Positions 42,987 through 47,472 of a DNA stretch of 64,000 bases are shown one piece after another (the first letter of the stretch is position 1; every line of letters starts with the position of its first letter). Made by a program: the position numbers and the translations under genes. The stretch lies in the NCBI GenBank assembly GCA_903925975.1, contig CAIYHG010000149.1, forward strand, positions 1-64,000, read 5' to 3'. This DNA comes from an uncultured Acidobacteriia bacterium. Its GTDB lineage: Bacteria > Acidobacteriota > Terriglobia > Bryobacterales > Bryobacteraceae. A model generated the notes under the pieces. The model was not told where the DNA came from and did not search any database. It worked only from the letters and a program-made list of their open reading frames with translations.

Positions 42987-44270
42987 TTACCCGCGCTTCT
43001 TCTTATAGCTCCGCGCTAACTCCATGTAGACGCCTAAGTCGCGGTCGAGGTCCGATTGCGTGCCGTCGAAGTAGAAGTTTCTGATGGGGATGCCGCCTAA
43101 GTCGCGGCTGATGCGCGGGTAGATGGCTTCGCAGACGATGCCGTTCATGCACGTGAAGGGGCTGATATCGATGATGCCGGCGGCGCCCTTCCTGGCCAGA
43201 TAGACCACCTTGCCTACGTTCAGCACCATTTCGCCGAACGCGCCCTCGCGCGGCAGATACGGGCGCGCGCAATCGAGAATCTCGTAGATATCGGGTTCCT
43301 CGCGGCCTTTGAAGTCTTCGGCGAGCGCCTCGATCAGCACGTGCTCGTCGTGCTTCTGCACGCGTTGGCGTACCCAGTTGCCTAGCGCTTCCAGGGTCCA
43401 GATGCGGCCCGCCAGCTTGAGTTTACGGAAATGCTCGGAGTTGGTATACCAGATCCACTCGACGATATCTGAGAGCCACCCCTCGGCTCCGTAGCCTTCC
43501 AGACGGCGGACCAGGTCTTCATTCGAAAACGTGTTCAGGCGGCAGAAGATTTCGCCCACGATGCCAATTACCGGGAGCCCGCCGGGTTTGGTTCCCAGCT
43601 TCCGGAAGCGGTCGCGGCCCCGAATAATCGCTTCGCGGAGCGCGTGCAGCTGCGCACCGGGGTCGGTGGATGTGGTTTCGATGGTTTTGCAGACGTCATC
43701 GAGCGATTGTTCGTAAATGCCATCGGCGTCGCCCGGCGCGGCCTCGTACGGGCGGTGAATCAGCAGCAGCTTTTGCAGCAGGTCGGCTGCGAGCAGGGCG
43801 CGCCAGCCGGTGCGCACGAACGGCTTCGAAAGCGTCCCCAACCCTCCGTAGGCGTTCTTACTGGTAGGCGAGAGTATTTCCACCCCGGCGTGCCCGGTAG
43901 TATCGAGCACGTGCCGCAGATACGGCGCGTATTGGCCGAAACGGCAAGGGCCTTCGGCGGTGGGCATGAACAGGGCCACGCGGGAGGAATCCGTGCCCGG
44001 CGTTTCGAGCAGGCGCATGAAATCGCCCACGGTGACCTTGGCTGGATAGCATTCGTCGCCCGAAGTATACTTGGCGCCGAGTTCGCGGGTTCGGTCGTCG
44101 GAGGGCGGCGTCGGTTCCGCATCCAATCCGATGGCGCGGAAAGCGGACGCGAACGCCCGCGCGCTGCCGTAAGCCATCGGAGGAATGTAGATGCGCTTGC
44201 TCTTTAGTGGATGGTCGGCTGCCCCGGCCGCGGTGTTTGCGGGGGCGGCTCCGTCGACGATTGGTAACAT
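42987..44270 (-). CDS. HgdB/BcrC-like C-terminal component of an acyl-CoA dehydratase-activase-type system
   Basis: This 427-residue protein matches the last third of large activase-related proteins. It has KRIYIPPMAYGSARAFASAF (about 24-43), SGDECYPAKVTVGDFMRLLE (with Cys), MPTAEGPCRFGQYAPYLRHV (with Cys) and DISPFTCMNGIVCEAIYPRI (two Cys) near the C-terminus. These cysteines could bind an iron-sulphur cluster. Its first 67 bases overlap the end of the 1,021-residue activase gene in another frame, so it is translationally coupled to it. AAAGGGA precedes the ATG at modest distance. The reaction is unknown; ATP-driven low-potential electron transfer is the family theme. Confidence 0.75.
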   Translation of the reverse strand: MLPIVDGAAPANTAAGAADHPLKSKRIYIPPMAYGSARAFASAFRAIGLDAEPTPPSDDRTRELGAKYTSGDECYPAKVTVGDFMRLLETPGTDSSRVALFMPTAEGPCRFGQYAPYLRHVLDTTGHAGVEILSPTSKNAYGGLGTLSKPFVRTGWRALLAADLLQKLLLIHRPYEAAPGDADGIYEQSLDDVCKTIETTSTDPGAQLHALREAIIRGRDRFRKLGTKPGGLPVIGIVGEIFCRLNTFSNEDLVRRLEGYGAEGWLSDIVEWIWYTNSEHFRKLKLAGRIWTLEALGNWVRQRVQKHDEHVLIEALAEDFKGREEPDIYEILDCARPYLPREGAFGEMVLNVGKVVYLARKGAAGIIDISPFTCMNGIVCEAIYPRISRDLGGIPIRNFYFDGTQSDLDRDLGVYMELARSYKKKRG

Positions 44271-47269
44271 CGCAGGATCCCTTTACTGTCCAGATACGCT
44301 TCGCAGCGAGTCATATACCCGGCATCGTTGCCGTGCCCGTCGAATTGCAGAATCAGCAACGGCGCCCCGGCTGCCTCGCGGGCAAAGTGCTTGATGTAGG
44401 AATCTGGCCCGCACTTGAAGTTGGTGATGTAGATCAGGTGCAGATTGGGGCGTGCGGCCGCTTCCTGGGCCGCGCGCAATATCTTGCGGCCCGAAATCCA
44501 GAACATGTTCGAGTACGCGTCGCCGATCTCCTCCCGGCCGGTCACCAGGAAATCGAGCGGTATCACGTTGGCGCCGTAGCGGTGGCGCAACTTCTTGGGC
44601 ACGTCGCAGTTCACGCCGCGGTCATAAATATTGTAGCTGCGGCCAGCCAGAATCAGCCCCGGTTCGCCCGTTTGGTCGAGGATGGCGAGGGCGCGGCGTC
44701 CGGCATCGAGAAGCTTGGCCTGGAAGTCGCGCTGCGCGGCGAACGCGGCATCTACCGCGCGGTCGCTCGCGCGCTGCGTCACGCCGATGCGGCGCATGGT
44801 TTCGCCGAGCGATTTCTTGATCTGCGCCGGCCCGAGGTGGAAGTGCAGCGTCGGGATCAGGAAGCGGCTTTCGTGCTGCTCCAGGCCCGGCGCGGCGCGC
44901 AGAACCCACGGCAGCGTCTGGTTCCACGGGCAATAGTGGGGCGCGCTGGCTGACGCCTCTCCCTCCGCGTCCACCAGGTTGGGGACGAGCACGTAATCCA
45001 CGCCCGATTCCACCAGCGACAGCACGTGCCCGTGCGCCACCTGTATCGGATAGCAGGGCTGGGCCACGGCCATTTCAATTCCCGCGGCGGAAATGCGGGG
45101 ATCGGTGACGGGCGAAAGTACGGTTTCAATGCCCACTTCCGCGAAATACGCCCGCCAGAACGGCAGTTGATCGAGCATCGCCATCGCGCGCGGCAACCCT
45201 ACGCGGATCGCGCTGCCCTTGGGGTTCGGCAGGGCTTCGATCAGGCTTTCGCGGTAAGCGAACAGGTCTTCGATTACCGGCTTGCGGCCCGTCGCGGAAG
45301 GCTTGCGGAACTTATCGGAGCACTTATCGCCCCAATAGCTCTTCTGCCCCTCGATGACGAACTCCTTCATGTCGCAGAGGTTCGTGCACGCTTTGCAGAC
45401 GAAATCGCGCGTGGTGAGGTTCAGTTGGTGCAGATCGTAGCCGCGGAAGCGCGACTTCCCGCCGGTAGCCTGATGCCACTGCCGCGCAATCAGAGCCATG
45501 CCGATAGCGCCCATCACGCCGTTATAGGGCGGGACGGTGATCTTCTTTCCCAGAATGCTGGCGAACGCTGCCGTGACCGCGTCGTTATACGCCGTGCCGC
45601 CCTGGAAGTAGATTACGTTTCCGATCTTGCGCCCGCGCACCACGCGATTGAGATAGTTCAGCGCGATGGAGTAGGCCAAGCCCGCCACGAGGCTGGGAAC
45701 CGTTTCGCCCTTGTGCAGCCATCCGGTGACGTCGCGCTCCATGAAGACGGTGCAGCGCTCGCCCAAGCGCGTTGGGCTTGCGGCCGAGAGCGCCAGGTTG
45801 GCGAACTCGCCCTTGATGCTGATGCCCAATTTTTCCGCCTGCTCTTCGAGGAACGAACCCGTGCCCGCGGCGCATGCCTCGTTCATGGCGAAATCCGTTA
45901 CCACGCCGTTCTCGATGGAGATGAACTTCGAATCCTGGCCGCCGATTTCGAAAATCGTATCCACAGGTTCGCCGCCGAGGGTGCTGCTGATGTGAATGGC
46001 GCCGGTCTTGTGGGCCGTGATTTCGTCGTTGACTGCGTCGGCTCCCACAAACTCGGCGATCAGTTCCCTGCCCGAGCCTGTGGTGCCCACCCCGCGAATT
46101 TCGAGGCGATCTCCCCAAAGTTGCTCAAGCTCGGCCAAGCCCTGCTGCACGGCTTCGATGGGCCGCCCCGCCGTGCGCAGGTAAATGTCGTGGATCACCA
46201 CGCCGAACTCATCGATGGCCACCACGTTCGTGGAGACGGAGCCGATATCGAGTCCCAGGTATGCGGGTATGCGCTGCCCGGGGGCGCCTGGAGAGTACAG
46301 GCCGACGCGCTCACGCAACTGAACCACGTTGTTCGAGGAGAGCGGGTTCGTATCCTGCACGCTGGCGTCGGCTTCGTGCTGGCGCAGGCGGTGAATTTCC
46401 AGAATGGAGCGTTTGCGAGGCTCCTCGGCCTCCAGGATGGCCGAACCGATGGCGCCCGCCCAAGCGTATTCCGCCGGTACGAAAAGGCCGTCCTCGGAAA
46501 GATTGAATGCCTCACGCAAGGCGCGGGTAACGCCTTCGTTCTGCGATACGGCCCCAATCAACGCCACCGGCGCTTCGACGGGCCGCCCCTTCACAATGGA
46601 GCCCTTGAAGTTGCGCGCCACGGCGTCGCAAAGCCCGCGCAGAATCTCCGACGGCGAGTAGCCCTTCTGCTGCGCGTGGATCATGTCGCTCTTGGCGAAG
46701 ACCGAGCATCGCCCGGCGATCCGCGCGGCGCAACTGGCCCCGCACACTAGTTCTCCGACCTCTTCCACCGAGTACTGCATGCGCAGCGCCTGCTGGTCGA
46801 GGAACGACCCGGTACCCGCGGCGCATTCGCCCGAGCGGTCGTAATCCACGATGCTCGAGCCTTCCAGGCGAATGTACTTCGAGGCTTCGCCGCCGATCTC
46901 GAACACCGTGCGCGCGTGCGGGTACATTTCGCCGATGGTGCGCGCGATGGCCTTGAACTCGTTTTCGTAAAACAGGCCCAATACTTTGGCGATGGTCCGG
47001 CTGCCCGAACCGGTGACGCGGATTCCCTCCACCCGGTCTTCGGGCACGATTTGATGAAACTCGTGCAGCAGATCGTAGGCGGATTGGATGGGGCTGCCGG
47101 AAATCCGGCGGTAAGAAGACAGAACCAGCGGCGCGCCGTGGAGTTCGGACATGCGGAACTGGGAGCCCTCCACGCACAGTGGGGCTAAAGCCTGACGGTC
47201 CTTGGGTTTACCCAATGCGGCCAGTTTGATACTGATGGCTCCGATGTCCAAACCTAAGTTGATGCCCAT
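44204..47269 (-). CDS. Double-domain BcrAD/BadFG-type ATPase with DUF2229 (activase-related)
   Basis: This 1,021-residue protein (from ATG 47269) holds two ASKHA ATPase domains in tandem. The first starts MGINLGLDIGAISIKLAALG and has CAAGTGSFLDQQALRM; the second (about 330-600) has YLGLDIGSVSTNVVAIDEFG and CAAGTGSFLEEQAEKLG. Each CAAGTGSF cysteine is the usual cluster ligand between subunits. A DUF2229-like part follows, with CKACTNLCDMKEF (CxxCxxxC) and VAQPCYPIQVAHGH. Activases of this class drive single electrons at very low potential by ATP hydrolysis. The partner domain is encoded by the overlapping gene downstream. Confidence 0.82.
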   Translation of the reverse strand: MGINLGLDIGAISIKLAALGKPKDRQALAPLCVEGSQFRMSELHGAPLVLSSYRRISGSPIQSAYDLLHEFHQIVPEDRVEGIRVTGSGSRTIAKVLGLFYENEFKAIARTIGEMYPHARTVFEIGGEASKYIRLEGSSIVDYDRSGECAAGTGSFLDQQALRMQYSVEEVGELVCGASCAARIAGRCSVFAKSDMIHAQQKGYSPSEILRGLCDAVARNFKGSIVKGRPVEAPVALIGAVSQNEGVTRALREAFNLSEDGLFVPAEYAWAGAIGSAILEAEEPRKRSILEIHRLRQHEADASVQDTNPLSSNNVVQLRERVGLYSPGAPGQRIPAYLGLDIGSVSTNVVAIDEFGVVIHDIYLRTAGRPIEAVQQGLAELEQLWGDRLEIRGVGTTGSGRELIAEFVGADAVNDEITAHKTGAIHISSTLGGEPVDTIFEIGGQDSKFISIENGVVTDFAMNEACAAGTGSFLEEQAEKLGISIKGEFANLALSAASPTRLGERCTVFMERDVTGWLHKGETVPSLVAGLAYSIALNYLNRVVRGRKIGNVIYFQGGTAYNDAVTAAFASILGKKITVPPYNGVMGAIGMALIARQWHQATGGKSRFRGYDLHQLNLTTRDFVCKACTNLCDMKEFVIEGQKSYWGDKCSDKFRKPSATGRKPVIEDLFAYRESLIEALPNPKGSAIRVGLPRAMAMLDQLPFWRAYFAEVGIETVLSPVTDPRISAAGIEMAVAQPCYPIQVAHGHVLSLVESGVDYVLVPNLVDAEGEASASAPHYCPWNQTLPWVLRAAPGLEQHESRFLIPTLHFHLGPAQIKKSLGETMRRIGVTQRASDRAVDAAFAAQRDFQAKLLDAGRRALAILDQTGEPGLILAGRSYNIYDRGVNCDVPKKLRHRYGANVIPLDFLVTGREEIGDAYSNMFWISGRKILRAAQEAAARPNLHLIYITNFKCGPDSYIKHFAREAAGAPLLILQFDGHGNDAGYMTRCEAYLDSKGILRCYQSSTEPPPQTPRPGQPTIH

Positions 47270-47472
47270 AATGATGGTCTTACGCTTCCCCACAGTTTGC
47301 GGCCATTCGGCCCGGAATTCAATGAAACAGGCCTGAAATGGCTTTTTCCGGCCCTGACAGGCGACGGAACGCGGTTGAGCGGAGCCGGCCCTGGGTGGGC
47401 CGGTTCGCCCGGAACTGCTGTGGATTGAGTGGATTTGCTGGTATCCGGCTAGAATCGGATCAGGGAGGAATC

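Follow-up and report, generated by a model that had tools for sequence, protein, structure and literature searches.

Which reaction is driven by a large activase-type protein that is divided over two overlapping genes in an uncultured acidobacterium of the family Bryobacteraceae, and is the division itself real? The two genes, called A and B here, lie in the 64,000-nucleotide stretch of DNA that we analysed (the window). An earlier note had described them as genes of 1,021 and 427 residues that overlap by 67 bases in different frames, with the break at a linker that is rich in proline and alanine in both frames. The open reading frames and the junction sequence agree with this description on each point. 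Gene A has an alternative in-frame start, a GTG, upstream at 47293. The pair has the following features:

44204..47269, minus strand: gene A, PlsA-like, with the domain order Act1-Act2-Red1, 1,021 residues plus stop; 26-28% identity to collinear single-ORF PlsA-type proteins; 42 homologues aligned
46436..47032, minus strand: Act1, the first BcrAD_BadFG ASKHA ATPase domain (the part that matches PF01869, E 3.6e-26), with putative ligands Cys149 and Cys188
45485..46258, minus strand: Act2, the second ASKHA ATPase domain (PF01869, E 5.6e-40; alignment with 1HUX, E 1.4e-25), with Cys466 and Cys506
45320..45397, minus strand: CxxCx3Cx17C motif between Act2 and Red1, formed by Cys625, Cys628, Cys632 and Cys650 of A
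44320..45205, minus strand: Red1, reductase half of HgdB/DUF2229 type (PF09989, E 7.4e-53 over 44549-45205), with Cys739, Cys780 and Cys953; domain end estimated
44278..44284, minus strand: Shine-Dalgarno-like AAAGGGA, 7 nt 5' of the gene B ATG, read from the sequence
44204..44270, minus strand: A/B overlap of 67 bases in different frames; linker and point of fission or fusion
42987..44270, minus strand: gene B, PlsR-like, Red2, 427 residues plus stop, with Cys74, Cys109 and Cys374; AlphaFold pLDDT 89.4; fold matches DCCP, HadBC, BzdNO and MbdON

The neighbours of the pair in the window (GMP synthase, ROK kinase, a YdjC-like protein, alcohol dehydrogenase, NfeD and SPFH) give no functional clue, and neither of the immediate ones, the YdjC-like and zinc alcohol dehydrogenase genes, is a lipid gene. 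An AAAGG resembling the Shine-Dalgarno-like site of gene B is also present in relatives. The codons for a conserved SKG in A coincide with this site; we considered them as a coupling element and do not claim one, since SKG is kept even where the start of B is more distant.

According to Pfam, gene A carries two PF01869 (BcrAD_BadFG) stretches and one DUF2229, and the only match of gene B is a sub-threshold one to DUF2229 (25.3 bits against a cut-off of 29.4). Gene A also matches the NCBIfam acyl-CoA dehydratase activase domain TIGR00241 with 258.7 bits (cut-off 125.4), and Cys466 and Cys506 of Act2 align with Cys127 and Cys166 of HgdC in 1HUX. This curated profile and the two HgdC positions place gene A in the acyl-CoA dehydratase activase family (TIGR00241/PF01869). 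Exactly 14 cysteines are common to the window pair and seven comparison sequences, namely two in each of Act1 and Act2, three in each of Red1 and Red2, and four in the CxxCx3Cx17C motif; the other cysteines of the window pair vary. The Act1 pair is invariant in the 42 aligned rows of A and is also found in PlsA-type proteins; the four-cysteine motif is invariant in the 42 rows and in all eight sequences compared; the three Red1 cysteines are invariant in both the 42-row alignment and the eight-sequence comparison; and gene B has three invariant cysteines among 55 homologues.

By sequence, no true relative of B was found in the PDB with either B alone or a B profile, and fold comparison alone found relatives. 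Foldseek pairs the AlphaFold model of B with 2-hydroxyisocaproyl-CoA dehydratase, benzoyl-CoA reductases and the double-cubane protein (E 3e-6 to 6e-4, probability 1.00), and VIA-align gives a Z of 12.4-13.3, with an rmsd of 4.4-4.9 over 276-291 residues, against 8-9.7 for unrelated rows. For the model of A (pLDDT 84.9), the best Foldseek matches are the activases MbdQ, HadI and HgdC. The profiles and folds thus uphold the earlier suggestion of an ATP-driven system of the activase/dehydratase type, and both parts keep candidate cluster cysteines, as had been proposed; these are the 14 shared with PlsA-type proteins. The accompanying claim that the target is absent from the locus did not hold. 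Red1, at the end of A, and Red2, which is gene B, are dehydratase/reductase-like halves, so that no separate target is needed.

Proteins with both activase and reductase halves are found elsewhere as single chains. Gene A covers the first two thirds and gene B the last third, end to end and at 22-28% identity, of single-ORF PlsA-type proteins from Listeria, Collinsella, Acetoanaerobium and Haliovirga, which is what had been expected of a fused protein of about 1,450 residues. These comparison proteins are annotated as "2-hydroxyacyl-CoA dehydratase", as "acyl-CoA dehydratase activase" or not at all; Listeria is listed among carriers of plasmalogen synthase orthologues (PMC9702350). They have the same layout of two PF01869 stretches and DUF2229, and all 14 cysteines are kept in the four from these named organisms. 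The names Act1, Act2, Red1 and Red2 come from plasmalogen synthases, which are single-ORF proteins in lactic acid bacteria and are encoded by a plsA-plsR operon in C. perfringens, the first to be characterised, with two ORFs, a short spacer and a length of about 4.3 kb (PMC12838417). The pair thus has the layout of the PlsA/PlsR-Ger family, with a pair of ASKHA activation domains ahead of two HgdB-type reduction domains in one operon, together with full-length collinear similarity and common cluster cysteines.

The likeness to PlsA/PlsR extends to the order Act1-Act2-Red1-Red2, the total length of about 1,450 residues, all 14 cluster-type cysteines (compared with the Listeria, Collinsella, Acetoanaerobium and Haliovirga homologues) and the two-gene operon form of C. 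perfringens; E. faecalis, L. cremoris and others have a single-ORF plsA. However, the identity of A/B to the PlsA-type homologues compared is just 22-28%, the genes overlap in the window whereas those of C. perfringens are spaced, and the split A/B genes form a clade of their own that is associated with tetraether synthase (Tes) and whose product is putative. The second relevant comparison is with Ger, which makes alkyl ethers from glycerol ester bonds in E. coli (PMC11150832). Two activation domains (BB) are the architecture of the validated Ger proteins of Thermotoga and Desulfatibacillum (PMC13274423, PMC11150832). As described in those publications, the Ger proteins of D. alkenivorans and T. 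maritima share with A/B the two BcrAD_BadFG domains and the reductase domains, and by analogy ester-to-alkyl-ether chemistry would be expected for A/B. Ger of D. alkenivorans is a single polypeptide of 159 kDa, whereas A/B is split. In the open-access literature we found no report of biochemistry on any member of the split clade.

A search for co-occurring genes, which the earlier note had recommended, revealed a strong association with Tes, called here by the NF045702 equivalog at a cut-off of 450 bits. The window's own genome encodes a Tes of 586 bits on a different contig from A/B (G000:C174:23132-24601). In Fisher tests, which treat genomes or genera as independent although they are not fully so and in which kinship is handled by the genus count alone, the 150 genomes of the window's family comprised 36 with both A/B and Tes, 10 with A/B only, 1 with Tes only and 103 with neither (p 2e-24), or 28, 4, 0 and 44 when counted by genus (p 7e-17); the corresponding numbers were 14, 4, 15 and 214 in 247 Acidobacteriota genomes (p 7e-12) and 40, 9, 5 and 144 in 198 genomes of a planctomycete class, with split and fused forms combined (p 1e-27). 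The two genes are often neighbours. Twenty-eight of 37 split planctomycete B genes lie directly upstream of tes on the same strand, mostly at a distance of 0.4-0.9 kb. The gene adjoining B in some Planctomycetota loci encodes a radical SAM protein that scores 480 bits with the Tes profile and matches the GDGT-MAS structure 7TOL (E 1e-102). Tes is directly upstream of A-B in two acidobacterial loci (L119 and L044).

The association has exceptions on both sides. Some genomes (G397, G398 and G399) have A/B without Tes, so A/B is not tied to tetraethers alone and may have a role in ordinary mono- and diether lipids as well. Conversely, the 15 Tes-only acidobacterial genomes lack the split A/B. In six genomes of one acidobacterial family, f4 (G002, G018, G032, G100, G109 and G118), Tes was above the cut-off and no A/B or fused homologue was found; these bacteria may make their ether bonds in a different way, for example with ElbD.

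Together, the architecture, all 14 cysteines and the genomic association point to the PlsA/PlsR-Ger family, that is, to reduction of membrane lipid esters to ethers. The reaction, which had been left open, can in this way be narrowed to a family, and the enzyme activity itself stays putative. We consider it likely that A and B together form a glycerol ester reductase of the PlsA/PlsR-Ger type, as its two subunits, and that this enzyme supplies ether lipids for Tes-type formation of (brGDGT-like) tetraethers. A related scheme exists for the acidobacterium Solibacter usitatus, which makes mono-, di- and tetraethers and has no ElbD, and for which, as a brGDGT producer, the action of PlsAR homologues followed by Tes has already been proposed (PMC10087280). 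The host phylum and the proposed step before Tes are the same in both cases. The Solibacter scheme is based on homologues in a single organism, whereas the present one draws on a split form, co-occurrence over hundreds of genomes and adjacency of B and tes.

Activases hydrolyse ATP to lower the potential of a [4Fe-4S] cluster and pass single electrons to a reductase or dehydratase. In the ester reductase that we propose, Act1 and Act2 would pair within the chain as a pseudo-dimer of ASKHA ATPases, with one [4Fe-4S] cluster bound by four cysteines. ATP-driven low-potential electrons would pass from there into a Red1:Red2 heterodimer, predicted to pair like HadB/HadC and to have a three-cysteine [4Fe-4S] site in each half. 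The substrate of this heterodimer would be a membrane phospholipid, whose acyl ester at sn-1 and/or sn-2 would be reduced to an ether. The product would presumably be an alkyl ether, possibly formed via a vinyl ether, and such ether lipids may be the substrates or partners of a radical SAM enzyme of Tes type, which joins chains to give membrane-spanning, brGDGT-like tetraethers.

One alternative, which we regard as unlikely, is that A/B is a true plasmalogen synthase with PlsA activity, making vinyl ethers and not saturated alkyl ethers. Its architecture is the same as that of PlsA-type proteins, down to the two PF01869 stretches, and Ger and PlsA are inseparable by sequence alone (PMC13274423, PMC11868695). 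However, the strong association with Tes fits alkyl ethers bound for tetraethers, and saturated mono- and diethers are made by Solibacter (PMC10087280). The split clade is also separate from the PlsA-type branch of Bacillota and Coriobacteriia. In an unrooted maximum-likelihood tree of the B region, in which homologues of PlsA type stand for the known family, a branch supported at 97/97 separates the 47 split rows from both the fused acidobacterial relatives and the PlsA-type proteins.

A still less likely identity for A/B is that of a different kind of reductase, either a small-molecule reductase of the double-cubane-cluster type or an acyl-CoA dehydratase that brings its own activase. The fold of B is equally like DCCP and HadBC (VIA Z 12-13), and some A/B genomes are without Tes. 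The wider group of HgdC/HadI with HadBC, class I benzoyl-CoA reductase and DCCP:DCCP-R shares with A/B the ASKHA activase fold, the cluster cysteines and the Red2 fold. However, these systems act on soluble CoA esters or small molecules and keep activase and reductase as separate proteins, whereas the activase of A is fused to Red1, which is the PlsA layout. In the double-cubane-cluster protein, six cysteines in one subunit hold an [Fe8S9] cluster. Each Red half of A/B has just three conserved cysteines, and we rejected membership of B in the DCCP family on this ground (Cys74, Cys109 and Cys374 against the six needed). The HadB/HadC-type fold and the number of three cysteines fit B, with the difference that the activator is not separate. 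The link to Tes in two phyla likewise argues against a function of this kind.

As to the split itself, two separate genes are the usual state in a clade that extends over many phyla. Close relatives of B, defined by at least 45% identity, were found in 18 of 247 Acidobacteriota genomes, including the window's own, and A and B are split in all 18, with A stopping before or just inside B. The earlier note had held that relatives with one fused gene throughout would speak against a real split; the comparison gave the contrary. The junctions vary: the 67-base overlap of the window and spacers of several hundred bases are the extremes in these acidobacteria, and shorter overlaps (about 50 and about 10 bases) and spacers of tens of bases lie between them. 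In 80 further loci from Acidobacteriota, Planctomycetota, Krumholzibacteriota, KSB1, Actinomycetota, Nitrospinota, Eisenbacteria, Calditrichaeota, Poribacteria and others, the genes are split, by different frames or by spacers, wherever both are visible. Fused relatives do exist (L049-L051 and others), but the chance that an assembly or base-calling error broke one fused gene is negligible, given that the same split, with varied overlaps, spacers and B starts, recurs in independent genomes of many phyla and that the split forms are a single clade (97/97). Because the tree is unrooted, it does not give the direction of change, fission or fusion. In one locus (L039), the spacer of about 500 bases between the stop of A and the start of B holds a small ORF that by eye resembles a four-helix bundle (S23-type).

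Several further genes were observed in the window's genome and at related loci. The window's genome encodes a further Tes-like radical SAM protein, of 698 residues (G000:C198; L203:8042-10135, minus strand; 311 bits, below the Tes cut-off), which is 33% identical to the genome's Tes, and Tes-like proteins of 300-350 bits are present in many Acidobacteriota, including genomes without A/B; the L203 protein is possibly a fatty-acid-coupling Mss or a ring synthase. A protein of about 600 residues (L202:2135-3931, plus strand) has a region that is 26-33% identical to residues 40-195 of B; it matches no Pfam or NCBIfam family and is widespread in Acidobacteriota, again including genomes without A/B. 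The genome also encodes a single BcrAD_BadFG-type ATPase of 327 residues (G000:C1; L201:4557-5537, plus strand; 125.8 bits) that has neither DUF2229 nor a reductase domain. Divergently upstream of A, several acidobacterial lineages encode a protein of about 700 residues (L034, L035, L036, L037, L038, L040, L042, L043 and L081). An NtrC/NifA-type sigma-54 activator domain is present in the copy at L037, and the protein may regulate the ether-lipid genes. Six planctomycete loci encode another radical SAM/SPASM protein downstream of B-Tes (L084:4484-6187, plus strand; also L082, L085, L092, L093 and L104); its closest profiles, far below their cut-offs, are NirJ2 and AhbD, and a further lipid-modifying step is possible.

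Branched GDGTs are widely used palaeothermometers, and debate continues over their producers and the enzyme that forms their ether bonds. The proposed reductase follows tetraether synthase through genera of two phyla, often as its neighbour, and is a testable candidate for the ester-to-ether step. What this analysis adds is that the split is conserved in many phyla, that A/B and Tes closely co-occur, and that B and tes adjoin; the biochemical idea had been proposed before. The accessible portions of the open-access literature contained no earlier report of these three features that we could find. The frequent adjacency of B and tes in planctomycetes leads us to suggest, tentatively and with clearly less confidence than the family assignment, that the split clade is a dedicated ester reductase branch that works with Tes and makes sn-1 and sn-2 diether substrates for bacterial tetraethers. 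Assignment to the PlsA/PlsR-Ger family would explain why a soil bacterium has a large protein of activase type but no separate dehydratase, and A/B with tes is a gene pair for screening producers. If the dedicated-branch reading is true, A/B and Tes would be a gene marker of the producers of brGDGT-type lipids in Acidobacteriota and Planctomycetota.
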